From a virus, in the IMG/VR virus record IMGVR_UViG_3300013285_000082, positions 1 through 23,346 of that record: a stretch of 23,346 nucleotides of DNA. One strand, given 5' to 3'. This document shows positions 6,757-23,346 of the stretch, one piece after another. The translations under genes were made by a program, and so were the position numbers. How positions within the stretch are numbered: the first letter of the stretch is position 1; every line of letters begins with the position of its first letter. Below the pieces are notes generated by a model. It ran no database searches. It was not told the origin of the DNA and was given only the letters and a program-made list of their open reading frames with translations.

Positions 6757-6759
6757 ATC

Positions 6760-7131: not shown

Positions 7132-7137
7132 CAATAG

Positions 7138-7143
7138 TAAATA
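7138..7143 (+). promoter_or_regulatory. Candidate T4-type late promoter
   Basis: TAAATA (with AG before it) lies 19 nt before the ATG at 7162, in the longest gap of this part of the array. T4 late promoters are TATAAATA with transcription starting about 6 nt further on; that would give a ~14-nt leader containing a strong AAGGAG ribosome binding site (7150-7155). No -35 is expected for this class. Confidence 0.45.
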
Positions 7144-7161
7144 AAAGATAAGGAGATTTAA

Positions 7162-7536
7162 ATGGGACATTATGCCAAAGTAGTAGATTCAAAAGTAACA
7201 CAAGTTATTGTAGCAGAAGAAGATTTTTTCCAAACATTTGTGGATTCAAGTCCGGGTGCGTGGATTAAAACTAGTTATAACACACGTGGTAACGTACATT
7301 ATATACCAAATACAAACGAACCTAGCGGGCAACCAGCAGTACGTGGTAATTATGCTGGAATTGGATATACATACGATTCAGTAAATGACGTATTTTATGC
7401 ACCAAAACCCTATCCAAGCTGGACATTAAATAAATCAGCATGGACATGGGAACCTCCTGTAGCATATCCCACTGATGGTAAATTATATCGCTGGGATGAA
7501 GCAACTACAGCGTGGGTTGAGATTACAGCACCTTAA
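7162..7536 (+). CDS. Conserved phage protein of unknown function (124 aa)
   Basis: It has a strong AAGGAG site and a candidate late promoter just upstream. The sequence (GHYAKVVDSKVTQVIVAEEDFF near the start, then SPGAWIKTSYNTRG, GNYAGIGYTYD, FYAPKPYPSW and WTWEPP) is of a type I recognise from T4-like cyanophages and related phages, where it usually lies beside structural genes and is annotated as hypothetical. It has many aromatic residues, no signal peptide, no membrane segment and no catalytic motif. Its position inside the fibre array suggests a virion or fibre-assembly role, but no function is established. Confidence 0.75.
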   Translation: MGHYAKVVDSKVTQVIVAEEDFFQTFVDSSPGAWIKTSYNTRGNVHYIPNTNEPSGQPAVRGNYAGIGYTYDSVNDVFYAPKPYPSWTLNKSAWTWEPPVAYPTDGKLYRWDEATTAWVEITAP

Positions 7537-7545
7537 GGAATAATT

Positions 7546-8801: not shown

Positions 8802-8960
8802 ATGTACAAAGAAACAATAGGAATAAATGGTAGACCAGCAGAAAGTGTTATTCGCATCTCAGATGAAGCTTGTATACCTTTTGATATTGCAAACACAGAT
8901 TATCAAGAATATCTAGTTTGGATAGCAGAAGGCAATACGCCAGAACCAGCGGGATCATAA
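8802..8960 (+). CDS. Small conserved phage protein (52 aa)
   Basis: The ATG follows the previous stop directly (TAAATG) with GGAG 6 nt upstream. The protein reads from [12 protein letters not shown] to TPEPAGS, with a central [18 protein letters not shown] and then [13 protein letters not shown]. The IRxSDxACIPFDxANxDYQEYxxW pattern recurs in small proteins next to phage tail-fibre genes and resembles the short accessory proteins that accompany fibres. It is acidic, soluble-looking and has no membrane segment. The ordered packing and the recognisable pattern make it a real gene despite its length. Its function is unknown; a fibre-assembly helper is a guess. Confidence 0.75.
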
Positions 8961-8961
8961 C

Positions 8962-9981
8962 ATGACCACAAATATCAGAGCCAGTTCGTCGTCAGGTGGT
9001 GGGTTAATAATAACCAGTGATGCTACGGGTAATTTAGGATTACAAGCCGATGGTGGCGTGGTTGATATGAGTAGCAACACAGGCGCTCTTAATTTACCAT
9101 CTGGCACAACAGCTCAACGTCCTGCTGCTCCTGTAATTGGTGCTATGCGTTGGAACAGTACAACCGCCAATCAGGAAATTTACATTGGCAACAGCGCATG
9201 GGCAGTTATAGCAGGCGGTACTTATACAGTTAATTACCTTGTGGTTGCGGGGGGCGGCGGTTCTGGATATGTGTGGGGCGGCGGTGGAGGCGGGGGCGGT
9301 GTTTTAGCAACATCGGCAAATTTATCTGCGGGAACTGCTTACACAATTACGGTTGGTGCTGGTGGTGCAACTTCTGCTTCAATATCTTTAACAGGTACAA
9401 ATGGTAGTAATTCTGTTATATCTACAATTGCCACAGCAATAGGCGGCGGCGGCGGCGGCACTTATAGTGGCGCAAATACTGGCGCAGCAGGAGGCTCAGG
9501 TGGTGGTGCATCTGGCAGTTCTAATTTTACTGGTGCGGCAGGAACATCTGGGCAAGGAAATGCAGGCGGTTCGACTGTTGCCGTTTCTAATAATGTAGGC
9601 GCAGGAGGCGGCGGTGGCGGGGCTGTTGGTGGAAATGCAAGCGGAACTTCAGCTGGAAATGGCGGAGTAGGTTCATCTTCTACAATTTCTGGGTCAACTG
9701 TTTTCTATGCTGGTGGTGGCGGTGGGGGCGCACAAGCTGGAACTCATGGCACAGGTGGAAATGGCGGTGGCGGTGCTGGTGGGGCGTCTGGAACGACAGG
9801 CACAATCAATACTGGCGGCGGCGGTGGCGGAAGTTTATCTTCAGGTGCTGGTGGTAATGGAGGTTCAGGCATCGTAATCATCAGCTACTTAGGCTCACAG
9901 CGTGGCACAGGCGGTACGGTTACATCTTCGGGTGGCTACACAATCCATACCTTTACATCATCTGGCACATATACCGGTTAA
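8962..9981 (+). CDS. Polyglycine-rich phage adhesin (339 aa)
   Basis: It starts 1 nt after the previous stop, with GGGA upstream. The shared N-terminal module is present (GVVDMSSNTGALNLPSG, TTAQRP, GAMRWNSTT, YIGNSAW). The Gly-rich head runs from ~94 (YLVVAGGGGSG) to ~310 (GNGGSGIVIISYLG) and includes long GGGGGG runs and an FYAGGGGGG motif also found in sibling genes. It ends with GTGGTVTSSGGYTIHTF, nearly the same as the end of the 5656-6756 product. Head loops differ from those of its siblings, as expected if loops carry specificity. No enzyme motif is seen. Confidence 0.75.
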   Translation: MTTNIRASSSSGGGLIITSDATGNLGLQADGGVVDMSSNTGALNLPSGTTAQRPAAPVIGAMRWNSTTANQEIYIGNSAWAVIAGGTYTVNYLVVAGGGGSGYVWGGGGGGGGVLATSANLSAGTAYTITVGAGGATSASISLTGTNGSNSVISTIATAIGGGGGGTYSGANTGAAGGSGGGASGSSNFTGAAGTSGQGNAGGSTVAVSNNVGAGGGGGGAVGGNASGTSAGNGGVGSSSTISGSTVFYAGGGGGGAQAGTHGTGGNGGGGAGGASGTTGTINTGGGGGGSLSSGAGGNGGSGIVIISYLGSQRGTGGTVTSSGGYTIHTFTSSGTYTG

Positions 9982-9990
9982 GGACAGCAC

Positions 9991-12900
9991 ATGACTTCAT
10001 CATTGCGGGCAAGTACTACTGGGTCAGGCGGATTCATTGGCACGTCAGACGCATCAGGTACACTGGGTGTAATAGCAGATGCAGGTATCGTTGACGCAAG
10101 TACCACAATTAGCGCAATGAATATGCCAGTTGGGACAACAGCACAACGTCCTGTAAGTCCCGCAACAGGCGCATCCCGTTATAACACAACATTAGCACAA
10201 TATGAAGTTTATAATGGCACAAGTTGGGTTACAGGTTTTCAAAACATCACAGCATCATATCTAGTAGTAGCAGGCGGTGGCGGTGGCGGCGGCTACAATG
10301 GCGGTGGTGGTGGGGGTGCAGGTGGTATGATTACAGGATCAACACCATTGGCTACTAACGTAAACTATGTAGTAACTGTGGGAGCAGGCGGAACTGCTGG
10401 AACGAATGGCGTAAACGCAGGAGTAGGCGGCAATTCAGCCATTACAAATTTATCAGTGACTAGTTTAGGCGGTGGCTACGGTTGTAGCGGTGGCCCTACT
10501 ACTAATAATGGTGGGCCAGGTGGATCAGGTGGCGGTGGTTCAGGTAATAATAATGGCACAGGCGGGGCAGGTACTTATGGACAGGGTAATCCCGGCGGAA
10601 CTGGTATTAATAGTACTTACTATTCAGGTGGCGGCGGCGGCGGTGCTGGCGCAGTAGGCGGAACTGGAACTGCCAATTCGTCTGGCGGTGCTGGTGGGGT
10701 TGGATTAGCTAATTCAATTACTGGAACAAGCACATATTACGCAGGTGGTGGCGGTGGCGCATTTAACAATGGTGCTGGTGCTGCTGGTGGATTGGGTGGT
10801 GGCGGAACTGGTGGCGGAACTGGTGCTGCTGCTGTAGCAGGTACAACAAACACCGGCGGTGGTGGTGGCGGTGGTTCTACTGCTACCTATCCAAATGGTG
10901 CTGCGGGCGGATCAGGAGTAACAATCTTAAGTTATTCTGGATTACAACAGTTTAATAGTCCTGTGGCGACTTATAACTACACTGGCGGATATAGTGTTCA
11001 CACATTTCCTACATCTGGCACTCTTACATATAGCCCAACAAAATTATTATACAATTCATTACGATTTCGGGCAAGCAATAGTGCGTATCTAAGTCGTACA
11101 AACGCATCAGCAGTCACTAATAACGCAGTTTGGACTTGGAGTGCGTGGGTTAAGATAGGCTATTGGTCTAGTGGTAATGCTGCTATTTTATTTGGCAATG
11201 GTGTAGCAGGCGGCGCTAATGAAAGTTCAATTAAATTTGTTAATAATCAACTAAACGTTATTAACTATGTTAGTAGTTCAGTTAAGTGTAGATATATTAC
11301 TAATGCTATATACGTTGATCCATCAGCTTGGTATCACATTGTAGTATCAAGTAATAGCTTAACCGGATTAAAAATTTATATAAATGATGTACAGGTTACG
11401 TCATTTGCCACTGCGGTTGCACCCGATGCATCAGCATGGGCATTAAACACAGCGGCAACAGCAACTAACATGGGCTATCTTACCAGTGCAAATTATTTTG
11501 ATGGTTACATAGCTGAAGTTAATTTTGTAGACGGACAAGCATTAACTTCAAAATCATTTGGTGCGTACAATGTTACTACTGGCGTATGGCAACCTATCGC
11601 TTATACAGGAACATACGGGTTAAATGGTTTTTATACTCCATTTAATGATAATTCTAGTGTAACAGCTTTAGGACTTGACTATAGCGGCAATCGTAATAAC
11701 TGGACACCTAATAATTTTAGTCTAACTGCTGGTTCAACTTATGATTATATGTTGGATTCTCCGACATTAACGAGTGCTACAGTTGGTAATTATTGTGTAA
11801 TGAATCCTTTAGATAATCGTGGATATACAACTATGGGATTTTCCAACGCAAATTTAACAGTTAGTAATACCGGCGCTGGTGGTACATCATACTATCCAAC
11901 CATTTTTCCAACTACGGGCAGTTATTATTTTGAAGCAACAGTTGGTACGGTTACTGGAAATGCGTTTGCAATTTATTTTTACGGAGGTACTGGCGGAGGT
12001 TATTATAGTAATGGCACAAAAGATTACACAACTGCGTATGGAGCAACCTACACTAACGGTGATGTAATTGGCGTGGCTTATAATTTATCAGCAGGTAATA
12101 TAACTTTTTATAAAAATAATGTATCACAAGGAACGCAAACGTTTGCTCTTAATGGTATTTTTAGTCTTGCAATCACAAATTCTGGTGATAAATGGAATAT
12201 TAATTTTGGACAGCAACCATTTTCCTACACTCCTCCTTCTGGTTACGTGCGATTAAACACTTACAACTTACCAACTCCCACAATAATTCAATCTAATAAG
12301 TATTTTGATATTAACTTGTGGACTGGAAATGCCACAGCTAGATCTTTATTGAACAACGCAGGTTTTCAAAGTGATTTTGGATGGATTAAAAGTAGAAGTA
12401 ATGCGTTAAACAGCGGTTTGATAGATTCAGTGAGAGGTACATCAAAATTGCTTATTTCAAATGCCACCAACGCTGAACAAACGCTTACTGATGAATTAAC
12501 ATCATTTAATACTAATGGATTTAGTTTAGGAGCATCGGCTAATGGATACACTAATTTCAATACTTACACTTACGTTGGTTGGTTTTGGCAAGCAGGACAA
12601 GGAGTAACATCAACTAATACTAGTGGTACCATTACCAGCACAGTTAGTGTGAATGCTACTGCCGGATTCAGTATTGCCACATTTACTGCAAACGGTACAG
12701 CGGGTGCTACTATTGGGCATGGACTAGGTGTTGCCCCTGCTTTTTATATGATCAAATGCCGATCAAATGCTCCCACAGATTGGATGAATTATAGTCAGGC
12801 ATTGGGTACTGGTTTTATGTATCTGTCATTAACCAATGCTTATAACTCTGCTAATAATTTAACAAATGGAGTAGCACCCACTTCTTCTGTAATTACTCTT

Positions 12901-13296
12901 GGCAATAGTAGTAACTTTAATGTTAATGGATACACTAATGTCGTTTACTCGTGGGCTCCGGTAGCTGGTTATTCAGCATTTGGATCGTACACTGGAAATG
13001 GAAGCACCTTAGGTCCATTTGTTAATACTGGATTTAGAGTTAGGTATGTGTTGATTAAATGTTCAACTGCTGTGGGCGATTGGTATATTTTTGATAATGC
13101 TAGAGGCATAAATGGCGCAATACTTGGATTGATTACAGATAACAATCAAATAGAGACAAACTATACATCAGCGGTTAACTTACTATCAAATGGATTTAGT
13201 ATTGGTAGAACAGATGCAGCATGGAACTCAAGTGGAGCAACTTATATATACGCTGCATTTGCTGACAATCCATTTAAATACGGGTTAGCCCAATAA
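9991..13296 (+). CDS. Large multidomain adhesin: polyglycine, LamG-like, SPRY-like, phage tail domain (1101 aa)
   Basis: AGGA precedes the ATG. Domains in order: shared module at ~20-80 (IVDASTTISAMNMPVG, TTAQRP); polyglycine head at ~90-316 (YLVVAGGGGGGG to GGSGVTILSY); LamG/concanavalin-like domain at ~352-525 (SLRFRASNSAYLSR, WTWSAWVK, WYHIVVSSNS, GYIAEVNFVDGQALT); SPRY-like domain at ~613-753 (GSYYFEATVG, GDVIGVAYNL, GNITFYKNN, WNINFGQQPFSY); and a phage tail domain of the type I know as DUF7483 at ~766-1101 (FDINLWTGN, FGWIKSRS, DSVRG, FNTNGFSLG, IGHGLGVAPAFYMIKCR, YIYAAFADNPFKY). LamG and SPRY folds commonly bind glycans or proteins, so this is the richest candidate for a receptor-binding protein here. 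The fusion of polyglycine and LamG parts in one chain is the odd point. Domain calls come from motif memory, not a search. Confidence 0.75.
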   Translation: MTSSLRASTTGSGGFIGTSDASGTLGVIADAGIVDASTTISAMNMPVGTTAQRPVSPATGASRYNTTLAQYEVYNGTSWVTGFQNITASYLVVAGGGGGGGYNGGGGGGAGGMITGSTPLATNVNYVVTVGAGGTAGTNGVNAGVGGNSAITNLSVTSLGGGYGCSGGPTTNNGGPGGSGGGGSGNNNGTGGAGTYGQGNPGGTGINSTYYSGGGGGGAGAVGGTGTANSSGGAGGVGLANSITGTSTYYAGGGGGAFNNGAGAAGGLGGGGTGGGTGAAAVAGTTNTGGGGGGGSTATYPNGAAGGSGVTILSYSGLQQFNSPVATYNYTGGYSVHTFPTSGTLTYSPTKLLYNSLRFRASNSAYLSRTNASAVTNNAVWTWSAWVKIGYWSSGNAAILFGNGVAGGANESSIKFVNNQLNVINYVSSSVKCRYITNAIYVDPSAWYHIVVSSNSLTGLKIYINDVQVTSFATAVAPDASAWALNTAATATNMGYLTSANYFDGYIAEVNFVDGQALTSKSFGAYNVTTGVWQPIAYTGTYGLNGFYTPFNDNSSVTALGLDYSGNRNNWTPNNFSLTAGSTYDYMLDSPTLTSATVGNYCVMNPLDNRGYTTMGFSNANLTVSNTGAGGTSYYPTIFPTTGSYYFEATVGTVTGNAFAIYFYGGTGGGYYSNGTKDYTTAYGATYTNGDVIGVAYNLSAGNITFYKNNVSQGTQTFALNGIFSLAITNSGDKWNINFGQQPFSYTPPSGYVRLNTYNLPTPTIIQSNKYFDINLWTGNATARSLLNNAGFQSDFGWIKSRSNALNSGLIDSVRGTSKLLISNATNAEQTLTDELTSFNTNGFSLGASANGYTNFNTYTYVGWFWQAGQGVTSTNTSGTITSTVSVNATAGFSIATFTANGTAGATIGHGLGVAPAFYMIKCRSNAPTDWMNYSQALGTGFMYLSLTNAYNSANNLTNGVAPTSSVITLGNSSNFNVNGYTNVVYSWAPVAGYSAFGSYTGNGSTLGPFVNTGFRVRYVLIKCSTAVGDWYIFDNARGINGAILGLITDNNQIETNYTSAVNLLSNGFSIGRTDAAWNSSGATYIYAAFADNPFKYGLAQ

Positions 13297-13302
13297 TAAA
13301 TA
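13295..13302 (+). promoter_or_regulatory. Candidate T4-type late promoter
   Basis: AATAAATA differs from the T4 late consensus TATAAATA only in the first base. It lies 15 nt before the ATG at 13318. A start 6 nt after the box would leave a ~10-nt leader carrying AAGGAAA (13307-13313). Confidence 0.5.
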
Positions 13303-13317
13303 CAATAAGGAAATAAT

Positions 13318-14250
13318 ATGACTGTAATAGTAGACGGAACTAATAGTGTAATACCAGCAAGTTGGACCACTGCTGGTCGCCCTTCCGCACCTATTGTCGG
13401 GCAATTGGGGTGGAATACTACTTTGGCAGTGATGGAAGTTTATATTGGATCAAATAATTGGCAAACTATTGCGTCAACTACGTATTTGATTGATTACATT
13501 GTTGTGGCAGGTGGAGGAGGCGGGGGATCTGGTACTGGTGGAGGCGGTGGTGCAGGTGGAGTAATTACTGGATCATCACTATCAGTGAGTTCGGGAACAA
13601 ATTATATCATCACTATTGGCGCAGGCGGCTCAGCGGTAGTCTTTCCAGCAGCTTCAAATAATGGATCTAATAGCACCGCATTCACTGTTACTGCAATTGG
13701 CGGCGGAGCAGGAGGTGGAGTAAACACTAATGGCGTTACTAATAACCCAGGATCTGGTGGATCAGGTGGAGGTCAAGCGTCTTACAGTACTGGCACTACC
13801 GGCGGTCCTGGTTCCGGAACTACAGGGCAAGGTAACGCTGGTGGATCTAGCACCGGCACTAATGGCGGTGGTGGAGGTGGTGGAGCAGGCGCAGTTGGCA
13901 CATCAAACGCAGGGGGAGCAACTGGTGGAATAGGAATACTATGGTCAAATAGTACATATTATGCCGGCGGGGGTTCTGGTAGTTATGGTGGTACTGCTGT
14001 TAGCGGAAGTCTAGGAGGCGGAGGTGCCTGTTTAGGCGGGTCTGGTGGGGCAAATGGTACAGCAAACACGGGCGGGGGTGGTGGAGCAAATTGGACATAT
14101 ACTGTTGGCGCACAAGCAGGAGGCGGTGGGTCTGGAGTAGTTATTGTTCGATATCAAGGCTCAGTAGCTAGAGCCACAGGCGGCGCAGTCACTATTACTG
14201 GTGGGTATGTTTACCATACTTTTACTTTATCCGGAACTTTTATATCATAA
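13318..14250 (+). CDS. Polyglycine-rich phage adhesin (310 aa)
   Basis: It has an AAGGA site and a candidate late promoter upstream. The N-terminus is a shorter variant of the shared module: TVIVDGTNSVIPASWTTAG, then RPSAPIVGQLGWNTT and YIGSNNW. The opening VIVDGTN resembles that of the 66-aa protein at 7546. The head begins at ~61 with YIVVAGGGGGG and ends at ~280 (GGGGSGVVIVRYQG), and the tail is RATGGAVTITGGYVYHTF. The Gly runs are interrupted by sibling-type motifs (YYAGGGSG, TANTGGGGGAN). It is a paralogue of the other Gly-rich genes, with the most diverged attachment module of the set. Confidence 0.73.
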   Translation: MTVIVDGTNSVIPASWTTAGRPSAPIVGQLGWNTTLAVMEVYIGSNNWQTIASTTYLIDYIVVAGGGGGGSGTGGGGGAGGVITGSSLSVSSGTNYIITIGAGGSAVVFPAASNNGSNSTAFTVTAIGGGAGGGVNTNGVTNNPGSGGSGGGQASYSTGTTGGPGSGTTGQGNAGGSSTGTNGGGGGGGAGAVGTSNAGGATGGIGILWSNSTYYAGGGSGSYGGTAVSGSLGGGGACLGGSGGANGTANTGGGGGANWTYTVGAQAGGGGSGVVIVRYQGSVARATGGAVTITGGYVYHTFTLSGTFIS

Positions 14251-14299
14251 CATACATTGCAGTAGAATAATTGAATAAATTTTTTATACTTGATACCAA

Positions 14300-14307
14300 C
14301 TAAATAC
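14300..14307 (+). promoter_or_regulatory. Candidate late promoter abutting the propeller gene
   Basis: CTAAATAC lies in the 61-nt gap 14251-14311. The 13 nt AACTAAATACTAG here also occur on the minus strand before gp14 (20574-20562), which supports a shared regulatory element. The box ends only 5 nt before the ATG and there is no ribosome binding site, so a start 6 nt after the box would fall on the A of the ATG. Nothing else is seen in this gap. Confidence 0.5.
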
Positions 14308-14311
14308 TAGT

Positions 14312-15613
14312 ATGGCATCAAGTATAAACGTACAAGCAGACGCAACAGTAGGCACTCTTACCAAATCAGGAGATGCCACTGGCAATCTCACGCTTCAAAC
14401 AAATGGTAACACAGCATTAACAATTAACACAAGTCAAAACATAATATTCAACGGAACTGGCGCATTTACCGTTCCTGTGGGTAATACAGCACAACGGCCA
14501 AATCCTCTGGTAAACGGCATGATTAGATACAATACAGCATATACTGCGGTAGAGGGATATGTAAATGATACATGGGTAGGTGTAGCGGGAACAGTGCCGG
14601 TATTTGCGGTAGCTGGATTCACTGTACCTGCAACAATGAATAGTAGCACCACCCCTGCCATAATGACTTCTGTTACATATGGGTATGGTAATGGATTATA
14701 TGTTGCTGTTGGATATTTAGGTACCAGTAATTATCCAGTATATGCTACCTCTAGTGATGGTAGTACATGGACTACTCCGGCTACAATGAATAGTAGTACT
14801 ACTGCTGCGCTAATGACTTCTGTTACATACAATGGTAGTTTATATGTAGCAGTTGGGTATAATGGATCTAATTTTCCAGTATACGCCACATCAAGTAATG
14901 GCAGTACCTGGACTACACCAGCCGCAATGAATGGTACTACTACACAATTTTATATGAAATCTGTTACTTACGGAAATGGATTATTTGTGGCAGTAGGATA
15001 TTCCTCACCAAATAATGCTGTGTATGCTACTTCAACCGATGGCAGTACATGGATTACTCCGGCATCTATGGGTACTGCCACTGGTGGATTAATGCAGTCT
15101 GTAATTTATGCCAATAATAAATTTGTATCAGTTGGTTACGCTAGCTCTAATCTTCCCGTATATGCCACATCAACAGATGGTAGTACATGGACTACTCCTG
15201 CAGCAATGAACGGAACAGCAGCAGGAGCACCAATAAATTCAGTTACATATGCCAAAAATTTATTTGTAGCAGTTGGTTATAAAATTAATAGTACTCCTTG
15301 TTATGCTACATCAACTGATGGTAGTACATGGACTACTCCTGCTGCGATGAATGGGACTACAAATTTAGTAATTATGAATTCTATTACATATGGAAATGGA
15401 TTATTTGTAGCGATTGGTGATACTACTGTTACTAGCCCAACTGTGCCTATGTATTCTGTGTCAAGCAATGGCAGTACATGGATTACTCCTTTAGCGATGG
15501 GCGGAACAGCCACACAATCAACTGTAAATAGCATTGCTTACAATAATAATAAATTTGTGGCTGTTGGAATGTTAGGGACTGCTGGCAATCCTACTTACGC
15601 TACTTCAAATTAA
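14312..15613 (+). CDS. Seven-bladed beta-propeller adhesin-like protein (433 aa)
   Basis: Residues ~1-90 are the shared array module (VGNTAQRP, NGMIRYNTA, YVNDTW). From ~105 there are seven repeats of 43-51 residues, each with a hydrophobic MxSVTY, an xLFVAVGY strand and YATSTDGSTWTTPAAM. Six copies of SxD/NGSTW are present. The seventh repeat stops at YATSN, and the strand missing from it is supplied at the N-terminal end by FTVPATM, the usual closure of a propeller. SxDGxTW is the Asp-box (BNR) pattern of sialidase-like and photosystem-assembly-like propellers. Sialidase catalytic residues (Arg triad, Tyr) are not apparent, so binding is more likely than hydrolysis. The start lacks a ribosome binding site and abuts a late-type promoter box. 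Confidence 0.78.
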   Translation: MASSINVQADATVGTLTKSGDATGNLTLQTNGNTALTINTSQNIIFNGTGAFTVPVGNTAQRPNPLVNGMIRYNTAYTAVEGYVNDTWVGVAGTVPVFAVAGFTVPATMNSSTTPAIMTSVTYGYGNGLYVAVGYLGTSNYPVYATSSDGSTWTTPATMNSSTTAALMTSVTYNGSLYVAVGYNGSNFPVYATSSNGSTWTTPAAMNGTTTQFYMKSVTYGNGLFVAVGYSSPNNAVYATSTDGSTWITPASMGTATGGLMQSVIYANNKFVSVGYASSNLPVYATSTDGSTWTTPAAMNGTAAGAPINSVTYAKNLFVAVGYKINSTPCYATSTDGSTWTTPAAMNGTTNLVIMNSITYGNGLFVAIGDTTVTSPTVPMYSVSSNGSTWITPLAMGGTATQSTVNSIAYNNNKFVAVGMLGTAGNPTYATSN

Positions 15614-15626
15614 ATACTAATAAATA
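15610..15626 (+). promoter_or_regulatory. Double TAAATA box before the last Gly-rich adhesin
   Basis: TAAATA occurs at 15611-15616 (its TAA is also the stop of the propeller gene) and again at 15621-15626, ending 4 nt before the ATG at 15631. There is no ribosome binding site. The first box would give a ~9-nt leader; the second would start within the ATG. Confidence 0.4.
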
Positions 15627-15630
15627 TAAT

Positions 15631-16716
15631 ATGACAACGATAATCAACGCAAACAGCTCAGGCTTAGTAGAAACTGTAGATACTAGCGGTAATTTACAGT
15701 TCCAAACTAACGGAACAGCAGCATTACATATTAATAATAGTCAAAATATTACAGCAAACAGTACTGGTGCTATTACCCTAAACGTTGGAAATACAGCGCA
15801 ACGACCCGCAAGTCCTGCTAATGGTATGATTAGGTATAGTAACACATCAAACTTACTGGAAGCATATGTCAACGGGGCATGGGCAAATATTAATACCGGT
15901 GCAACAGCTTACAACATAACTGTGGGAGTAGTTGCTGGCGGTGGTGGAGGAGGTGGATATTTAGGAGGTGGTGGTGGAGCAGGTGGTGTTGTAAGTTTTG
16001 CTGCGTATACGCTTCAACCGGGAACAGCCTATACTGCCAATATAGGAGCAGGTGGAGCAGGTGCTACAAATAGTCAAAATACTGCTGCTTCTAATGGATC
16101 AAACAGTACATTTGGCACAGGATCACTATCACGAATTACAGCGATTGGCGGTGGCGGCGGAGGTACATTAAATCAAAGACCAGCATGGAAAGCATCTTTG
16201 GGTGGCTCAGGTGGCGGAGATGGAGGCCAAAACAACGAAGGTCTTTACGGTTCATATGGACCTGGAATACCAGGACAAGGATTTGATGGCGGATATGTTA
16301 CAACCGGCACGGCATTTTGCGGAGGTGGTGGGGCAGGGGGTGTAGGTGCCAACGGAGCAAGCACAGCATCGGGAGGAGTTGGTATAATTAATGGTATAGC
16401 AGGATCAACAGCGGGGCAACTAATTTCTGGCAACTACTGGCTAGCAGGTGGTGGAGCAGCAGGGTCGGCAACAACCAGCACAGGTGGAAACGGCGGGGGT
16501 GGAAATACCGGAGTAAATGGCACAGTCAATACTGGTGGCGGCGGTGGCGGATCGTATAATTCAACTGGCGGTAATGGTGGGTCTGGTATTGTAATTATAT
16601 CTATACCCATAGCAAACTATCCTGGTAATGCTAACGTGGTAGGAACTTATACATACGCCAACACAGGTACAGCTATTGTACTTGGATTCACTGCTAATAC
16701 TGTTTACACGGCATAA
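15631..16716 (+). CDS. Polyglycine-rich phage adhesin (361 aa)
   Basis: The N-terminus (TTIINANSSGLVETVDTSGN, then LHINNSQNITAN) is close to that of the propeller protein just upstream, followed by the shared NTAQRPASPANGMIRYSN and YVNGAW. So these two neighbours have the same base and different heads. The polyglycine head runs from ~98 (VGVVAGGGGGGGYLGGGGG) to ~325 (GGNGGSGIVIISIP). The end (ISIPIANYPGN, GFTANTVYTA) is the second C-terminal type, shared only with the gutted 6760-7131 gene. No Shine-Dalgarno site is visible before the ATG. Confidence 0.74.
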   Translation: MTTIINANSSGLVETVDTSGNLQFQTNGTAALHINNSQNITANSTGAITLNVGNTAQRPASPANGMIRYSNTSNLLEAYVNGAWANINTGATAYNITVGVVAGGGGGGGYLGGGGGAGGVVSFAAYTLQPGTAYTANIGAGGAGATNSQNTAASNGSNSTFGTGSLSRITAIGGGGGGTLNQRPAWKASLGGSGGGDGGQNNEGLYGSYGPGIPGQGFDGGYVTTGTAFCGGGGAGGVGANGASTASGGVGIINGIAGSTAGQLISGNYWLAGGGAAGSATTSTGGNGGGGNTGVNGTVNTGGGGGGSYNSTGGNGGSGIVIISIPIANYPGNANVVGTYTYANTGTAIVLGFTANTVYTA

Positions 16717-16721: not shown

Positions 16722-17384
16722 ATGGAAGCTAGATACAGAAAGAATTACCCAGGCGAGTTTGTAATTACAGAAACTAAATTTTCTGGTGGTAAAAAACACG
16801 AAAAACGTGAATGGATTAAAAATCCCATTATAAATCAACATTTATCAGGTCGTGCTGTTGCTATAGGCAGTAGTGATGATATTGCTAGATTTGACTACCG
16901 CATACTGGCAACACATCGTGGTGGATTGCTTGGTAGTTTAAAAGTTCAAACATATGGCACAAGTGAAATAGCCAGACAAATGAGGTTAGATTTTACGGTT
17001 GATACTGATTATAATAATCTAATGCCACTAGTAGAAAGTAAATATGTGGTTGATAATATTGTATACACAACTGCCAAAAATTGCACAAAACAGCCTGGTG
17101 AATTTTATTTAATACCTCAACATCCACACTTATGTACTGAAGTATTGCCAATTTATCTTGCTGCGTTTGATGGACATAATGAAGTTTATTTAATTGGATA
17201 CTGTAAAGAAATGTCGGCAGGGCATGATAATTGGATCAAACAAATTACTGATATCATAGCAGCATATGATGGCACTATGTTCATTATTGTGGGTAATGAA
17301 CTTAATATGCCAGACGAGTGGTTGTCTTGTTCTAATACAAAAACATTAACAAATAGAGATTTTGTAACTTATTGTGATGTTTGA
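16722..17384 (+). CDS. Conserved phage protein of unknown function (220 aa)
   Basis: It starts 5 nt after the adhesin stop with no clear ribosome binding site. Recognisable stretches (ARYRKNYPGEFVI, GGKKHEKREWIKNPI, GRAVAIG, HRGGLLGSLKVQTYGT, MRLDFTV) match a protein I remember as a hypothetical in T4-like marine phages, but no function is attached to it. There are no membrane segments. Composition differs from the adhesins: charged, with Cys and His (HPHLCTE, YCKE), so it is more likely a soluble cytoplasmic protein than a fibre part. Its 3' end overlaps the convergent Nudix gene by 16 nt. Confidence 0.75.
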   Translation: MEARYRKNYPGEFVITETKFSGGKKHEKREWIKNPIINQHLSGRAVAIGSSDDIARFDYRILATHRGGLLGSLKVQTYGTSEIARQMRLDFTVDTDYNNLMPLVESKYVVDNIVYTTAKNCTKQPGEFYLIPQHPHLCTEVLPIYLAAFDGHNEVYLIGYCKEMSAGHDNWIKQITDIIAAYDGTMFIIVGNELNMPDEWLSCSNTKTLTNRDFVTYCDV

Positions 17385-17806
17385 AGCTGTGTTTGTATAA
17401 TAGATATCTTATTTCGAACGGCTTCAAAATTTATTGTAGACCATAATCCGGGGTGAAGTGGTTTAGGCCAAGTTCCCGAATCAATCCAAGAATATCCTAG
17501 ATGCTCATCATTAAGAATAGGTTTAAATTCATCTGCTACAATACAAAAAAATGTATTGTATACAAATCCGTTGTCAGCACTTGTGAATTTTTCTAGGGGC
17601 ATTAGCTTAATGTAATCAGGCATTGATCCTAATTCTTCTTCACATTCTCGAACCATCGCGGCCATGATGCTTTCACCTGATTCTATTTTTCCACCTGCTA
17701 ACCCCCACGAATCAGGATGTTTAGTATCATTTCTCAATAGATATAGATAACGATTAGTAGATTGACTATAAAACCAAATGCCAACCGCTGAAATTATATT
17801 ATTCAT
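17369..17806 (-). CDS. Nudix hydrolase
   Basis: The Nudix box is complete: G39-x5-E45-x7-R53-E54-x2-E57-E58-x-G60 (GGKIESGES, then RECEEELG), counted from the chosen start; only the last hydrophobic position is Ser. The family uses these Glu residues with Mg2+ to split nucleoside diphosphates linked to another group; the substrate cannot be told from this sequence. The chosen start makes a TAATG overlap with the gp15 stop, the same junction as between gp14 and gp15, and begins at MNNIISAVGIWFY as Nudix domains usually do. An in-frame ATG at 17824 has GGAGG only 3 nt upstream and would add six residues. The gene lies third in a neck and tail operon, so it is probably expressed late, unusual for a nucleotide-pool enzyme. 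Confidence 0.85.
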   Translation of the reverse strand: MNNIISAVGIWFYSQSTNRYLYLLRNDTKHPDSWGLAGGKIESGESIMAAMVRECEEELGSMPDYIKLMPLEKFTSADNGFVYNTFFCIVADEFKPILNDEHLGYSWIDSGTWPKPLHPGLWSTINFEAVRNKISIIQTQLQTSQ

Positions 17807-19206
17807 TAGATGATTAGGCTCCATTGGCCTCCGGAATATTGCCCTTGGTATGATTTAACCCAGTTATAACCTGTCCATTTATATTGTATCTCGGTTACTA
17901 TGTTTGTAACGTATTGTGTATTTACGGGGCTTGACTGAGAATCAAAAGTAATTACCCATCTTGTGCCATCATACTGTATAATATCATTAGGATACGCAAC
18001 TAAAATTTCACCTGACGTGCCCGCCCATGCTTGTGCGTAGCCGTTGCTACTGCCAGTTGATTCAGTCAACAGATATCTTTGTCCTATAGCAGCAGAAGGT
18101 AATCCTTCGCCAGGTCCACTAACCCGAGGGTTGATAACTGAGCTTACAGGAGGCAGTGTGTTAGCGGGAATAGATTCAGGAATTACTGAAAATAGTAAAA
18201 ATTGATCATTTGTGAGATCAAAACTTACATTGCCATACACTTGACTACCATCTTCCTGAGTTAAGGCGACTACACTAATGCCAGGTCGTAACATTCCATA
18301 CATATTAACGACAGGAGTCCATAATACATTACTTGGTTCAACTGGATTAGGAGGAAGTAATTGTTGGTTATTCTCGTCAACTATAGCTGATCGTTCTAAA
18401 ATTTGTAATTTATTACCTATTAATACTACTTGATAGCCATACGGCGTAATGTACTGCCTAGTTCCAAGTAACAAGTCATTATCGGCAATAGCGTTGACTA
18501 AATCACCTGATCCATCAAATACAGAGGCAATAATAGTTTCAACAATTCCTAGTTTCTTAACTTTAGCTGGCAATGATAACCATATAGGCAGAGAAAATTT
18601 AATGGTAGAAATGTCAATAGGGTCTTCTGTGCCTTGAGGAATGCTACGGCTCGACCAGCCCGTTGAAACCAATTCAACAATACTTAAACTAGACCAATCT
18701 AGGAAGTTATCAGTGCTTTGTATCTCAAGACTAGGATTAAATAAAGGCAATATTTGTTCCATCAACTGCATTTTTTGGTTAGTATTACTGGTCCAAATAT
18801 CTAAATTGATTGATAATTTGTACGGAGCAGGCATGTATCGTTCAACAGTAAAAGCATTGCCTTGTGTAGTTTCATAGGTGCCCGTTGCTTCATCATACTC
18901 ACGTTGCCTAATTGATTTGTTGTCAACATAAGTTGGGTTCTGCATACGGGCACGATCAAAATCTAGGCCCGTAATATGAAATGTCATTAACGGAGTAGAT
19001 GGCATGTTACTTGCGCTATTTTCCTGGAGAATAGTTTGAACTTGTCTTGTGCTGTCTCCATATCTAACGGGCACACGATATAATGTATCACCTGTATTAG
19101 GAGCGCCAGCCTCATTTCTTCCAAATTCTACTTGAAATCCAGAAAACATTCTAGCGAATTGCGTTAGGTAACGACGAACTTGCCCGTCGAAAAAGTATTG
19201 TTGCAT
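17806..19206 (-). CDS. 15: T4 gp15-like tail sheath stabiliser / tail completion protein, extended (466 aa)
   Basis: In T4, gp15 forms a ring on top of the contractile tail and binds it to the neck. Residues 1-~230 match its pattern from memory: YFFDGQVRRYLTQFARMFS, YRVPVRYGD, a central PAPYKLSINLDIWTSN and MEQILPLFNPSLEIQ, ending IKFSLPIWLSLP. T4 gp15 is about 272 residues; here ~200 more follow. Residues ~369-430 (IGQRYLLTE, NDIIQYDGTRWVITFDS) and 431-466 (IQYKWTGYNWVKSY) look like small structural modules often used to decorate phage proteins. The start overlaps the gp14 stop (TAATG), with AAGGG upstream. The assignment rests on motif memory plus the gp14 neighbour. Confidence 0.78.
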   Translation of the reverse strand: MQQYFFDGQVRRYLTQFARMFSGFQVEFGRNEAGAPNTGDTLYRVPVRYGDSTRQVQTILQENSASNMPSTPLMTFHITGLDFDRARMQNPTYVDNKSIRQREYDEATGTYETTQGNAFTVERYMPAPYKLSINLDIWTSNTNQKMQLMEQILPLFNPSLEIQSTDNFLDWSSLSIVELVSTGWSSRSIPQGTEDPIDISTIKFSLPIWLSLPAKVKKLGIVETIIASVFDGSGDLVNAIADNDLLLGTRQYITPYGYQVVLIGNKLQILERSAIVDENNQQLLPPNPVEPSNVLWTPVVNMYGMLRPGISVVALTQEDGSQVYGNVSFDLTNDQFLLFSVIPESIPANTLPPVSSVINPRVSGPGEGLPSAAIGQRYLLTESTGSSNGYAQAWAGTSGEILVAYPNDIIQYDGTRWVITFDSQSSPVNTQYVTNIVTEIQYKWTGYNWVKSYQGQYSGGQWSLII

Positions 19207-20558
19207 TATCGCCCTTTAGGTCTTGGTTTAGGTGTTAAATTGCCGCCTTGATTACCGTTATCAGCTTCTGGTTTAAGCAATTCTGATAATGATTGACGAG
19301 AAGGAATATTACCCTGGTCGGTTGTATTTACCGTATATGTATTATTAACGAACGAACTACGCTGAGTTCCATTTGCCGGGCCCCAATCTAATGGTGTGCG
19401 AACATCTTCGCTGATGGCTAGCCAGTTTGCGCCACTAAATCTAAATAGGCGATTTGGATAATAATCTAAGCGCAGGCAGTAATCTCCTTTGCTAGGAGTT
19501 AATGGAAAACTAACTCCGGGTGTAACCGGCAATCCATTTGGAGCCAACTTATCACCTGTCAAATAACCCATTGTCCAGCCAAAATCAGTAGGGGTATTAC
19601 CTTCACCAGACTGTGCGCCGTCTACTGTGGGATTAGTTTGGTCAGCAAACAACCCCTGCCCGCTAGGCTGGTCATTTGGTGTGGTTGGCAATATATAAAA
19701 TGACACGTTATCATATCCTGATTGTGGAACTTCAATGTTTGCTTGTACAACTAACGCATCATTGATAGCTAATTCTTTGTTTCTTGTTGAATTAACATCA
19801 CCCATTGTAGTTGGTTTTTCAATTAGTGCCCAGTAATTTGGATCGTTGATATCAGTGCCAGGCGGTACATTTTTTGTTGATTCATAATATTTTCCACCGT
19901 TATCAACTACCATTCCTTGTGGATAAAAGTTTCCATTATCCCAAATATTGTCTGGCATTAGCGGCAGATTGATGATTTGTTGGTATTCCTGGGCATTGAC
20001 CATAGGCGTGGCTTGTACACGCCATATATGAGGCAACCAGGTTTGGCTATATCCTTCTGCAGCAAAAGCTGCGTCCTGTATAACATAATACTTAGGTAAT
20101 GCTCTTGTAATATTTTGATTTAATGGGTTATAATCCTTCATATTGGGCAATTCTAGCACATCGCCAGTCATTAATTTACGCCCAAATGTATCAATCATGT
20201 CATTGTAGTGAAATGTAATGTACAGTGTATCGTTGTTTAAAAATAACCCAAATTGAGACAAGTTAAAGTTGATATCTTGCATCATGTATACGCCACGCAT
20301 GACATAAATGTTAGGGTCATACGCCCGATCACGGTTTTCTAACAGTAGCAAATCTTCGATAAACAGTGGATTTGTCGAGGTATATACTGGCAAAGTTGCA
20401 TCTTTATTTCCGGGATTGTCAGTGGTGTCTACAATTGGTCCCATGTACTTGTGTACATACATATCAAGACCTCCAACTGTATATCGTTCAGATATGATAC
20501 GATCTAAATACTGGTAATCATTGGTTCGATTAGGACGATAGAGGCTGAGTCTTGGCAT
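19206..20558 (-). CDS. 14: T4 gp14-like neck protein, extended (450 aa)
   Basis: Gp14 forms part of the neck through which DNA leaves the T4 head. The first ~200 residues match the family: DYQYLDRIISERYTVGGLDMYV, FIEDLLLLENRDRAY, LSQFGLFLNNDTLYITF, MTGDVLELP and a PHIWRV strand. T4 gp14 is about 256 residues; this one has ~200 extra. At ~206-246, GNFYPQGMVVDNGGKYYES ... PPGTDINDPNYWAL resembles the small CBM5/12-type fold (Y-x-x-G-x-x-V, G-x-x-Y, PGT, W). At ~380-405, YPNRLFRFSGANW is another common phage module, and the tail is NLTPKPRPKGR. It is the first gene of the minus-strand operon. The ATG has no ribosome binding site and follows a TAAATA box by 7 nt. Gp14 is favoured over other neck proteins because gp15 follows it. 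Confidence 0.72.
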   Translation of the reverse strand: MPRLSLYRPNRTNDYQYLDRIISERYTVGGLDMYVHKYMGPIVDTTDNPGNKDATLPVYTSTNPLFIEDLLLLENRDRAYDPNIYVMRGVYMMQDINFNLSQFGLFLNNDTLYITFHYNDMIDTFGRKLMTGDVLELPNMKDYNPLNQNITRALPKYYVIQDAAFAAEGYSQTWLPHIWRVQATPMVNAQEYQQIINLPLMPDNIWDNGNFYPQGMVVDNGGKYYESTKNVPPGTDINDPNYWALIEKPTTMGDVNSTRNKELAINDALVVQANIEVPQSGYDNVSFYILPTTPNDQPSGQGLFADQTNPTVDGAQSGEGNTPTDFGWTMGYLTGDKLAPNGLPVTPGVSFPLTPSKGDYCLRLDYYPNRLFRFSGANWLAISEDVRTPLDWGPANGTQRSSFVNNTYTVNTTDQGNIPSRQSLSELLKPEADNGNQGGNLTPKPRPKGR

Positions 20559-20564
20559 AGTCTA

Positions 20565-20572
20565 GTATTTAG
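20565..20572 (-). promoter_or_regulatory. Candidate late promoter of the gp14-gp15-Nudix operon
   Basis: On the minus strand CTAAATAC runs 20572-20565 within AACTAAATACTAG, the same 13 nt as before the propeller gene (14299-14311). TAAATA ends 7 nt before the gp14 ATG, which predicts a 0-2 nt leader. It lies back to back with the sigma70-type promoter at 20584, so the 60-nt gap 20559-20618 is a divergent late/early control region. Confidence 0.55.
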
Positions 20573-20583
20573 TTAGGATTCAA

Positions 20584-20612
20584 TTGACAATTAATTAGAA
20601 AATACATATAAT
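20584..20612 (+). promoter_or_regulatory. Consensus sigma70 promoter abutting a start codon
   Basis: TTGACA (20584-20589), 17 nt, TATAAT (20607-20612): 12 of 12 consensus bases with ideal spacing. The expected transcription start, 7 nt after the -10, is base 20619, the A of the ATG. An AATTG-A-CAATT inverted repeat (20583-20593) covers the -35. This is typical of a host-polymerase early promoter. Confidence 0.85.
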
Positions 20613-20618
20613 TACTGC

Positions 20619-20870
20619 ATGGATGAAATTTTAGAACGACTATCAATTGCCGAAAAACAGCTTCACGGAGTTAGAAATAAAGTGGCACTCCGTGATCTTC
20701 AAAAAATGATAAGAAACATTGACACTGTTGTTAAAGAAATCAGTAGGGAATCAGTGGAATGTAGGAGACTTAAAAAGAATACAGTAAGATACAATGACTT
20801 AAAGACATCAGCAGTAACTCTACTAGATAACTTGGATCATCACATAATCTTTGCGATGTTATTAAGTTGA
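20619..20870 (+). CDS. Small helical phage protein of unknown function (83 aa)
   Basis: The protein is highly charged and predicted helical: DEILERLSIAEKQLHGVRNK with heptad-like spacing, then RDLQKMIRNIDTVVKEIS, CRRLKKNTVRY, ending HHIIFAMLLS. A short coiled coil or three-helix bundle is likely. I recall similar small proteins from T4-like marine phages, without known function. There is no ribosome binding site; the start codon sits where transcription from the consensus promoter should begin. Expression is probably early and from a leaderless mRNA. The stop codon lies inside the -35 of the next gene's promoter. Confidence 0.75.
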   Translation: MDEILERLSIAEKQLHGVRNKVALRDLQKMIRNIDTVVKEISRESVECRRLKKNTVRYNDLKTSAVTLLDNLDHHIIFAMLLS

Positions 20871-20895
20871 CATTTTTTAACAAATAGGCTATAAT
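20867..20895 (+). promoter_or_regulatory. Second consensus sigma70 promoter abutting a start codon
   Basis: TTGACA (20867-20872) overlaps the stop of the 83-aa gene; after 17 nt comes TATAAT (20890-20895). The match is again 12 of 12. The predicted start, 7 nt after the -10, is base 20902, the A of the ATG. A second TATAAT at 20895-20900 is too close to the ATG to add a useful start. Confidence 0.85.
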
Positions 20896-20901
20896 ATAAT
20901 T

Positions 20902-22047
20902 ATGAAAAAACTATCAACCACAATCAAACGACTAGTCCCGCGCGGAGAGGATGCCAAATTTATTGGCTCAGAGCCTGAGTGGCTTACTCAACCCACTGAT
21001 GATACTCGTGTTGGAACTCTAGCCAAAGCACTCAATTGGTACAATTACTCCTATGGTCGCAAAGATGCCAAGGATCTAATTATTCAATATTTTGAGGTTA
21101 ATAAAAGAGCTAAAGAAGTAAAACTGATGCGCGGCATTCCAGATAGTCGTGTAAAAACAACAACAGGTTGGATCTGTAGAATGTCAGTTATGGGTCTACA
21201 ATTGAAAGATTATGAACAATCTATTCTAGATGAGCATCTTGGTGAATTATTAGCCGGCAAACAAGAAGAACAAAAAGTTGCTGCTACCTCAGAAGAAACT
21301 GCTCAACAAAAGCTAACTATTCAAGATCATCTTCGAGAAAAAGCAAGTGAATGTGCAGCAGAACTTGATGGCATGTATGATGATTTTATTGATGCAGATG
21401 CTAAAATGTCGGCAAATTTCAAGCCTATCGCACTAATTCGTGGCATGAATATTGCTATTCAAATGATTCCTCATATTACTGCAGTTTGGAAATTGCGGCT
21501 TGCGGAACTAGAAGAAGTCGTAGAAGGTAAAGATCCACAATTGGTTGAAGGATATAGCCATCTTACTAAAACTCAGTTAAAAAGCTGTGTAAAATTCTGT
21601 GAAACTGTACTCGCGGACTGCCAATCATATATTTCACTCAAGAAAGTAGAACGTAAGCCTCGTGCCAAAAAGGCAGTGAGTCCAGAAAAAGTGGCATTGA
21701 AGTTCAAATATCTCAAGGAATTTGCTGAACTTGGACTTAAATCCCTACCTGCCACAAGTCTGGTGGGTGCGTCAGAAGCATTCATTTATGACACGTTAAA
21801 GCGTAAGTTGATCTATGTTATCGCAGACGCACACGCGGGAACATTTACAATCAAAGGATCATCTCTGCTTGCATTTGATGCGCTGGCAACGGTACAAAAG
21901 ACCCTAAGAAAACCCGATATTATTCTTAAAGAATTACTAAAGGTCGGCAAACCAGCGATGCGTAAAATATTCAAAGACATAAAAGCTACTGAAATCAAAT
22001 ACATGGGTCGCAGCAATGATCATTTAGTAATTCTAAAGGCGTGGTAA
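20902..22047 (+). CDS. Conserved phage protein of unknown function (381 aa)
   Basis: No known catalytic motif is recognised. Visible regions: a basic N-terminus (KKLSTTIKRLVPRGEDAKF); a helical stretch (WYNYSYGRKDAKDLIIQYFE); a charged, probably coiled-coil middle at ~105-160; a Lys/Arg-rich linker at ~252-265 (KKVERKPRAKKAVSP); then a C-terminal part with SLVGASEAFIYDTLKRKL and VIADAHAGTFTIKGSSLLAF. The C-terminal pattern resembles hypothetical proteins of T4-like cyanophages. The basic linker could contact nucleic acid, but this is speculation. Its own consensus promoter, its lack of a ribosome binding site and its non-structural composition suggest an early cytoplasmic protein expressed from a leaderless mRNA. 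Confidence 0.75.
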   Translation: MKKLSTTIKRLVPRGEDAKFIGSEPEWLTQPTDDTRVGTLAKALNWYNYSYGRKDAKDLIIQYFEVNKRAKEVKLMRGIPDSRVKTTTGWICRMSVMGLQLKDYEQSILDEHLGELLAGKQEEQKVAATSEETAQQKLTIQDHLREKASECAAELDGMYDDFIDADAKMSANFKPIALIRGMNIAIQMIPHITAVWKLRLAELEEVVEGKDPQLVEGYSHLTKTQLKSCVKFCETVLADCQSYISLKKVERKPRAKKAVSPEKVALKFKYLKEFAELGLKSLPATSLVGASEAFIYDTLKRKLIYVIADAHAGTFTIKGSSLLAFDALATVQKTLRKPDIILKELLKVGKPAMRKIFKDIKATEIKYMGRSNDHLVILKAW

Positions 22048-22051
22048 TCTG

Positions 22052-22059
22052 CTAAATAT
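22052..22059 (+). promoter_or_regulatory. Candidate late promoter of gp13
   Basis: CTAAATAT lies 5 nt after the stop of the 381-aa gene. It has the same CTAAATA core as the boxes before gp14 and the propeller gene. A start about 6 nt after the box would give a ~13-nt leader that contains GGAG (22068-22071), so gp13 is expected to be translated in the ordinary way. Confidence 0.5.
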
Positions 22060-22076
22060 ATGTACATGGAGTCCAT

Positions 22077-22847
22077 ATGGCAGAGCAATCACAATCTACA
22101 CTAGAAACACTTAAACAAGATCTAATTGAATACGTTAGGCTTCAATTAGGTGATGATATTATTGATATAGAGCTGGACGCTAGCCATTACGAGTCTGCAT
22201 ATCGCAACACTATCGGTACCTATCGTCAACGTGCACAAAATGCCTATGAAGAAAGCTATACCTTCATGGAACTAGTTGCTAATGTAAACATTTATGATTT
22301 ACCGGATGAAGTTATACAGGTACGCCAAATATTCCGTAGAACATTTGGTGACTCAACCGGACCAAATGCCAGCAATTTTGATCCATTTAGCCAAGCATCA
22401 ATGAATGTTTATCTAATGAACTTCAATGTATCGGGTGGACTCGCAACATACGATTTCTATTCACAATATGTTGAACTAGCAGGTCGTATGTTCGGTGCCT
22501 ATATGAACTATACATGGAATCCGGTTACTAAAAAACTTCAGTTAATCCGTGATCCTAAAGGTTCCGGAGAGAATGTCTTGTTATGGACATACAACTTAAA
22601 GCCAGAAGTCAACTTGCTAAGTGATTACCAAATTCGTCAATGGATTCGTAATTACATGTACGCCAATTGTAAAATGATTATTGGTGATGCCCGTGAAAAA
22701 TTTGGTACTATAGCTGGTCCGCAGGGTGGAACCACATTAAATGGTGCGGCAATGAAGGCTGATGCTAAGGAATTGATGGCACAATGTCTTAAGGATTTAG
22801 TTGATTATGTAGACGGATCACAACCATTAACCTGGGTTATTGGCTAA
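22077..22847 (+). CDS. 13: T4 gp13-like neck protein (256 aa)
   Basis: In T4, gp13 and gp14 complete the head-neck after DNA packaging. The match to gp13 is seen at the N-terminus (LKQDLIEYVRLQLGDDIIDIELDASHYESAY, followed by a strand and YDLPDEVIQVRQIFRRT), in the centre (FYSQYVELAGRMFGAYMNYTWNPVTKKL), in the C-terminal helical part (WIRNYMYANCKMIIGDAREKF) and at the end (PLTWVIG, like the ILVG end of T4 gp13). T4 gp13 is about 309 residues, so this is slightly short but complete. It has GGAG 5 nt before the ATG and its own late-type box. Gp14 and gp15 lie on the other strand more than 1.5 kb away, which is not the usual arrangement. Confidence 0.75.
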   Translation: MAEQSQSTLETLKQDLIEYVRLQLGDDIIDIELDASHYESAYRNTIGTYRQRAQNAYEESYTFMELVANVNIYDLPDEVIQVRQIFRRTFGDSTGPNASNFDPFSQASMNVYLMNFNVSGGLATYDFYSQYVELAGRMFGAYMNYTWNPVTKKLQLIRDPKGSGENVLLWTYNLKPEVNLLSDYQIRQWIRNYMYANCKMIIGDAREKFGTIAGPQGGTTLNGAAMKADAKELMAQCLKDLVDYVDGSQPLTWVIG

Positions 22848-22864
22848 TTAAATAACCAAAAAGT

Positions 22865-22893
22865 TTGTTTTTTAGTATCCATTCTATTATAAT
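22865..22893 (+). promoter_or_regulatory. Sigma70-type promoter abutting the exonuclease start
   Basis: TTGTTT (22865-22870; 3 of 6 match), 17 nt, TATAAT (22888-22893; 6 of 6), then 6 nt to the ATG at 22900. The spacing equals that of the two consensus promoters at 20584 and 20867. The -10 lies within the perfect inverted repeat 22876-22906. Confidence 0.6.
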
Positions 22894-22906
22894 AATAGAA
22901 TGGATA
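22876..22906. repeat. Perfect 15-bp inverted repeat over -10 and start codon
   Basis: The arms 22876-22890 and 22892-22906 are exactly complementary around base A22891 (TATCCATTCTATTAT and its reverse complement). It covers the -10 element and the first two codons of the exonuclease gene. As DNA it could be an operator for a dimeric regulator. As RNA only the right arm would be transcribed if the start is at 22900, so an attenuator hairpin is less likely. Confidence 0.75.
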
Positions 22907-23346
22907 TAATGATGGATTTAGAAACGCTAGCTGCTTCCCCTGATGCTACCATTTTAACAATAGCGGCCCAATGTTTTGACCCGCTTGGTAAGGGATATAG
23001 TGAGAAATATCACTACTATGCTCGTATCACTCTAGACAGTCAAGAAGGCCGAGCAATTAGTGACAGCACTGTTGAATGGTGGGGCACACAACCAGAAGCT
23101 GCTGCAGAAGCACTTGCCGAAGATAATCGTATTCCTCTTGATCAAGCTCTTGACGAGCTACATAAATTGTGTTGGAAATGTGATTTAATCTGGACAAATG
23201 GAATAACATTTGACATTTGTATCCTAGAAAACGCTTACACAAAGTTAGGAAAACCTCTTCCATGGCAATTTTTCAAAGTTAGGGATGCTAGAACTGTGTA
23301 TAGTCTGTGGCCTGATTGTCCAAAACCAGTGACTAGTCATCATGCG
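22900..23346 (+). CDS. DEDDh 3'-5' exonuclease, RNase T/Rv2179c-like, 3'-truncated
   Basis: The frame runs off the window end after 149 codons. The N-terminus (MDIMMDLETLAASPDATILTIAAQCFDP) carries the first exonuclease motif D6-x-E8. NGITFD with D105 gives the second. TSHHA at 145-149 is the beginning of the third motif (H-x4-D), whose Asp would lie just outside. HYYARITLDSQE, ISDSTVEWWGTQ and RDARTVYSL fit the phage and bacterial family related to mycobacterial Rv2179c, which trims RNA or DNA 3' ends with two metal ions. The start at 22900 fits the promoter geometry; ATGs at 22909 and 22912 are in frame and would keep D6 and E8. No ribosome binding site is present. A role in phage nucleic-acid turnover is inferred. 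Confidence 0.8.
   Translation, partial: MDIMMDLETLAASPDATILTIAAQCFDPLGKGYSEKYHYYARITLDSQEGRAISDSTVEWWGTQPEAAAEALAEDNRIPLDQALDELHKLCWKCDLIWTNGITFDICILENAYTKLGKPLPWQFFKVRDARTVYSLWPDCPKPVTSHHA

Follow-up and report, generated by a model that had tools for sequence, protein, structure and literature searches.

A putative leaderless gene architecture behind early and late promoters in one lineage of large T4-like phages from fresh water

The phage lineage described here probably uses a lineage-wide leaderless gene architecture that does not depend on promoter type, a reading to which we assign a probability of about 0.85. Both sigma70-type (early) and gp55-type (late) promoters occur in two discrete layouts, one fused to the start codon and the other followed by a leader with a Shine-Dalgarno (SD) site. 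In the fused layout, transcription would start at the A of AUG or no more than about 3 nt from it, and "leaderless" may here mean 0–3 nt of leader. In the other layout, the mRNA would carry a short leader with an SD site.

The window, which is the whole stretch of DNA analysed, is the 23,346-nt IMG/VR record IMGVR_UViG_3300013285_000082, a 23-kb viral contig fragment. No match for it was found by megablast among 50,697 phage records; relatives in IMG/VR number in the hundreds, and 80 of their loci were fetched. The window's lineage belongs to the large, uncultured freshwater T4-like phages. Promoter positions were pooled over seven records (1.12 Mb), namely the window and six long contigs of relatives (157, 154, 320, 317, 84.5, and 62.5 kb); the pooled counts are drawn from related genomes and are hence non-independent, and the 80-locus set overlaps the long contigs in part. 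Distances run to the ATG of an ORF with at least 40 codons for early promoters and at least 60 codons for late promoters, with the T4-type NTAAATA late box searched as [CGA]TAAATA.

Fused units in the window

Direct reading of the sequence upheld the layout given in a preliminary description of this DNA, in which the genes at 20619, 20902, and 22900 share an identical arrangement of -35 hexamer, N17, TATAAT, N6, and ATG (Table 1, units 1–3). As also stated there, two of the three are perfect sigma70 promoters, the third having a weak -35 element with 3/6 matches, and no SD site lies upstream of the three units but such sites precede 7162, 13318, and 22077. TATAAT-N6-ATG has five occurrences in the window, where chance would give 0.6. 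The exonuclease gene of unit 3 has extra in-frame ATGs at 22909 and 22912. Judged by promoter type, units 1–3 would be early genes, and they would represent sigma70-type members of the fused class with leaderless mRNAs. The preliminary description had set leaderless early genes against SD-led late genes. This contrast does not hold within the window, where the late genes at 14312, 15631, and 20558 (-) are also leaderless by the position of their late boxes.

Table 1. Candidate leaderless units and leadered contrasts in the window
Feature	Coordinates	Strand	Elements	Remark
Unit 1 promoter	20584..20621	+	TTGACA 20584-20589, N17, TATAAT 20607-20612, TACTGC, ATG 20619	Read from sequence
Unit 1 gene	20619..20870	+		83-aa ORF without PHROG match, conserved in relatives
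Unit 2 promoter	20867..20904	+	TTGACA 20867-20872, N17, TATAAT 20890-20895, ATAATT, ATG 20902	Read from sequence
Unit 2 gene	20902..22047	+		381-aa protein, phrog_11903, E 1.5e-65
Unit 3 promoter	22865..22902	+	TTGTTT 22865-22870, N17, TATAAT 22888-22893, AATAGA, ATG 22900	Read from sequence
Unit 3 gene	22900..23346	+		Exonuclease, phrog_255, E 1e-36; runs off the window
Candidate leaderless late unit	14300..14314	+	CTAAATA 14300-14306, 5 nt, ATG 14312	
Candidate leaderless late unit	15620..15633	+	ATAAATA 15620-15626, 4 nt, ATG 15631	
Candidate leaderless or near-leaderless late unit	20566..20572	-	CTAAATA, 7 nt before ATG 20558	Divergent from unit 1; geometry kept in all seven records
Gene at 20558	19206..20558	-		450-aa virion structural protein, phrog_11591, E 9.5e-82
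Leadered late contrast	22052..22079	+	CTAAATA, 18-nt gap with GGAG, ATG 22077	Head-tail adaptor Ad2
Leadered late contrast	7137..7164	+	GTAAATA, 18-nt gap with AAGGAG, ATG 7162	
Leadered late contrast	13296..13320	+	ATAAATA, 15-nt gap with AAGGA, ATG 13318	

Several further features of the window were noted. At 20559-20618, the 60 nt between the divergent genes carry a late promoter for 20558 (-) and a sigma70-type promoter for 20619 (+), both fused and standing back to back, an arrangement kept in the related records examined. The TGA that ends the 83-aa gene lies inside the -35 element of the 381-aa gene, and GGTTGACA is kept at this place in many relatives. A perfect 11-bp inverted repeat, CCATTCTATTA-TAA-TAATAGAATGG, surrounds the -10 element and the exonuclease start at 22879-22903 (25 bp); in far relatives this site often has another repeat, TGCTATAAT..ATAGCA(TG), which is also found at the primase promoter. 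These inverted repeats are a possible operator or extended -10 element. An essential operator role for the 25-bp repeat was dropped, as the repeat is absent from the nearest relatives. Elsewhere, the tail-fibre-like genes at 5656, 8962, 9991, 13318, and 15631 (5656-16716) have a phrog_2295 module in common, which suggests repeated duplication of one fibre module in neighbouring genes. A Nudix hydrolase gene (phrog_1198, 17369-17824, -) adjoins a tail sheath-like gene.

Two distances behind both promoter types

Across the seven records, the distance from 325 sigma70-like promoters to the ATG was bimodal, with peaks at 5–7 nt (35 cases; top at 6 nt) and at 28–31 nt (64 cases), the second peak spanning about 27–32 nt in all and having an SD site. 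The preliminary description had proposed a scan of the whole genome and of relatives for an excess of the short spacing, and such an excess was found: the 35 cases at 5–7 nt compare with about 7 predicted from the remaining distances (Poisson P ~8e-14), and scrambled -10 hexamers gave a flat distance distribution. The leadered early group has a common conserved leader ending in GGAG. Within it, 50 of 64 promoters have A at the seventh position past TATAAT and 53 of 64 have T one base earlier, forming a T-A step. The best evidence for the position of the transcript ends comes from the seventh position, because the conserved A is the expected start and coincides with the A of the ATG in the 6-nt class. 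This argues that the mRNAs of that class begin at the start codon, in agreement with the start site predicted in the preliminary description.

The two early groups also differ in the genes that they precede, with a median length of 175 aa for leaderless genes versus 95 aa for leadered ones. The latter are mostly small genes in arrays, for example at 96-110 kb of the relative G002. In that region (L127, L128), each of the small early genes has a similar cassette, TTGACA-N17-TATAAT-agcagtacagtaaacaaacaggagc-ATG, amounting to a repeated portable promoter with an SD leader.

Late boxes showed the same division. In the seven records, 89 genes lie at 4–7 nt from the box, 10 at 8–14 nt, and 104 at 15–25 nt, and this bimodality was repeated in the 80-locus set (97, 5, and 117, respectively). 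The fraction at 4–7 nt was 15.7% for TAAATA versus at most 2.5% for each of its remaining 14 anagrams. T4 late promoters have TATAAATA at -13 to -6 (PMC1524935). With the commonest late gap of 5 nt, this placement makes the A of the ATG the +1 base. In the subclass with a 7-nt gap, position 5 after the box is A in 24 of 24 cases, with ACT or ATT just before the ATG; these genes, including 20558 (-), and the orthologs of the 381-aa gene with a 9-nt distance may have a fixed 3-nt leader, ACU-AUG. NTAAATA boxes precede the portal gene and other virion genes, and a gp55 homolog adjoining a gp47 homolog was found in G001, G003, and G004 (phmmer with T4 gp55, E ~1e-7 or better). With 89 leaderless candidates behind late promoters versus 35 behind early ones, and with about 64–73 early promoters SD-leadered, the view of this layout as an early-gene design could not be kept. 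A class restricted to sigma70-type promoters was rejected on these late candidates and on the three late genes in the window.

Translation signals separate the two layouts further. SD sites were found before 1 of 89 leaderless versus 82 of 104 leadered late genes, and before 0 of 35 leaderless versus 58 of 73 leadered early genes. Among late genes, the ratio of ATG to GTG/TTG starts was 89:3 in the leaderless and 104:26 in the leadered group (Fisher P 2e-4); the bias was weaker in the 80-locus set, with 97 ATG, 6 GTG, and 3 TTG starts at 4–7 nt. The class shows three sequence marks of leaderless genes, namely a -10 element about 10–12 bp before the start codon that is enriched over controls, absence of an SD site, and a preference for AUG. 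Initiation would proceed through the 5'-terminal AUG, by a 70S or IF2-assisted route, rather than through SD pairing. Independence from ordinary ribosome recruitment, as proposed in the preliminary description, would follow from this anatomy. A phage-encoded IF3 was sought as an explanation and was not found.

Conservation, gene content, and competing explanations

In orthologs of the three units from up to 56 related contigs, the 5–7 nt spacing is mostly kept, with proteins down to about 40–60% identity. Counted over distinct ortholog upstream regions, the -10 element lies 6–7 nt from the ATG of the 83-aa gene in 40 of 45 and 5–7 nt from that of the exonuclease in 46 of 56. For the 381-aa gene, 27 of 47 regions have 5–7 nt and 11 have 9 nt (38 at 5–9 nt). 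In one ortholog (L069), the best fit is an in-frame upstream ATG at 6 nt. This gene is SD-leadered in 8 of the 47, two of them with a GTG start, and on the tree of the protein the leadered state requires two changes. In contrast to the unit genes, Ad2 is SD-led in 55 of 56 orthologs. When orthologs of leaderless late genes were compared, 182 were late-leaderless, 5 late-leadered, 2 early-leadered, and 9 had an SD site only, while 42 had no recognised motif, in 240 comparisons that are non-independent because every genome serves as query; with the same dependence, orthologs of leadered genes were late-leadered in 246 comparisons versus leaderless in 8. The predicted leaderless or leadered state is thus conserved gene by gene.

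The leaderless peak is absent in T4, PA5oct, and five further relatives (ACP17, V45v66, phage OC, BUCT-ZZ01, and Cr30). Despite the absence of a peak in PA5oct, its exonuclease gene at 158242 is arranged in the early layout, with a distance of 7 nt. In the PA5oct ortholog of the 450-aa virion protein, the homologous Met follows a late box and a leader with GGAG. More generally, start codons used in the fused layout have SD-led counterparts in outgroups or single relatives (PA5oct, G005), and the N-termini align from that Met.

Genome compaction, an unlikely alternative, would have promoters abutting start codons merely for lack of space, with translation from longer transcripts started upstream and the adjacent promoter acting as a minor or variable start. 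The gaps are indeed short (31–60 nt), the stop codon of the 83-aa gene lies in the -35 element of unit 2, many T4-like genes have more than one promoter (PMC2984593), and read-through transcripts from upstream promoters are possible. However, compaction predicts scattered distances, whereas the observed ones form two sharp peaks that leave 8–14 nt sparsely occupied, and a longer transcript would have no obvious route of translation before starts that have no SD site. Considerably less probable is that ATG is a preferred initial transcribed sequence of RNA polymerase, with translation starting at some other site, such as an SD-led start further downstream. Start-site choice by RNA polymerase does depend on the sequence around +1, but the leadered promoters of the same phages have no ATG at that place, and the ORFs that begin at the ATG are conserved and align at their N-termini from that Met, SD-led orthologs included. 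In addition, neither class has many in-frame downstream starts with an SD site (leaderless, 3/89 late and 5/35 early; leadered, 7/104 late and 8/73 early). Chance, by which AT-rich genomes would often yield TATAAT-N6-ATG and TAAATA-N5-ATG, is barely credible. Of the five TATAAT-N6-ATG occurrences in the window, two (5639- and 17010+) are without a -35 element and outside gene starts, but this explanation is refuted by anagram, Markov, and distance controls and by ortholog conservation.

Early leaderless genes include those for two exonucleases, a primase, an SbcD-like (gp47) subunit, a phosphoribosyltransferase, and an HD hydrolase, as well as phrog_107 (listed as exonuclease), which we take to be a T4 RNase H-like nuclease, and phrog_8420 (listed as endonuclease), presumably a UV-endonuclease-like protein. 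Among the late leaderless genes are those for the portal, a baseplate wedge subunit, and further virion proteins. In G001, G003, and G004, the three relatives where it was found, the major capsid gene is preceded by a strong SD site, AAAGGAG, and leaderlessness as a mark of the most expressed genes was rejected for this gene on that ground. The fused class would serve replication, repair, and recombination enzymes together with low-copy virion parts, and its likely purpose would be to provide compact, self-contained units of moderate translation, with the major capsid protein on a strong SD site. The idea of a moderate dosage is put forward because portal and baseplate are low-copy in T4 and the capsid gene retains its SD site.

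A gene for ribosomal protein bS21 was found in the five longest contigs of relatives (G001-G005) and in PA5oct. In the five contigs it is preceded by a TAAATA-type box, with a clear GGAG-like site in three. In other lake phages with bS21, the protein is expressed late and is proposed to favour phage transcripts (PMC9723584). It is conceivable, though doubtful, that the phages run two translation programmes, leaderless and SD-led, and that the balance shifts once late, SD-led phage bS21 enters host ribosomes and alters their preference. The link between bS21 and leaderless mRNAs is speculation, and PA5oct has bS21 without the leaderless class. Assignment of a host by bS21 similarity was given up, as the MAG matches were distant or mixed and the four best, all proteobacterial bins, had no leaderless peak.

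Relation to known systems and implications

In Gram-negative systems, leaderless mRNAs are regarded as rare exceptions. The mRNA of lambda cI from PRM is leaderless and has no SD site, and ribosomes enter it via the 5'-terminal AUG (PMC3160421, PMC9031893). The present units resemble it as phage mRNAs that would start at the gene's AUG without an SD site, judging by promoter position. Unlike cI, which is one lysogeny gene of a temperate phage, they comprise about 120 candidates in seven records, with about 17 expected by chance, and involve two promoter types. Another parallel is given by the "TA-led" bacterial genes, in which a -10-like element about 10–12 bp before the start codon marks a leaderless gene (Zheng et al. 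2011, PMC3160421). The -10 position is the same, and both occur alongside SD-led genes, but TA-led genes were described in cellular genomes with sigma70-type -10 elements only, whereas here the genome is viral and gp55-type late promoters are also used. The late box is that of T4, whose late transcription depends on gp55, gp33, and gp45 with TATAAATA, and a gp55 homolog is present in three of the relatives. T4 itself differs, with 1 gene at 4–7 nt among 147 NTAAATA motifs and with leadered late genes. The proposed architecture would be atypical of T4-like phages, a type that has been studied in depth.

As large lake myoviruses with bS21, these phages also resemble the bS21-encoding freshwater phages of Chen et al. 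2022 (PMC9723584), for which Bacteroidetes hosts were predicted and in whose description leaderless mRNAs are not mentioned. SD leaders together with TTGACA/TATAAT promoters suggest another kind of host than Bacteroidetes for the present lineage. One paper states that phage transcripts in general are often leaderless (PMC5312081). The author of the preliminary description knew of no account of such a class in T4-like phages, and no report of one was found in the open-access literature, a kind of search that cannot prove absence.

The sister phages offer matched pairs, with the same promoter type and the same gene with or without a leader, which are suited to testing the function of the leader. 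The results also carry a warning for annotation tools, whose start-codon calls in such phages must not rely on an SD site. If the architecture proposed here is true, with primase, nuclease, portal, and baseplate genes conserved as leaderless and SD-led genes using the two promoter types as well, leaderless translation would rank as a main strategy in phages of a common kind.
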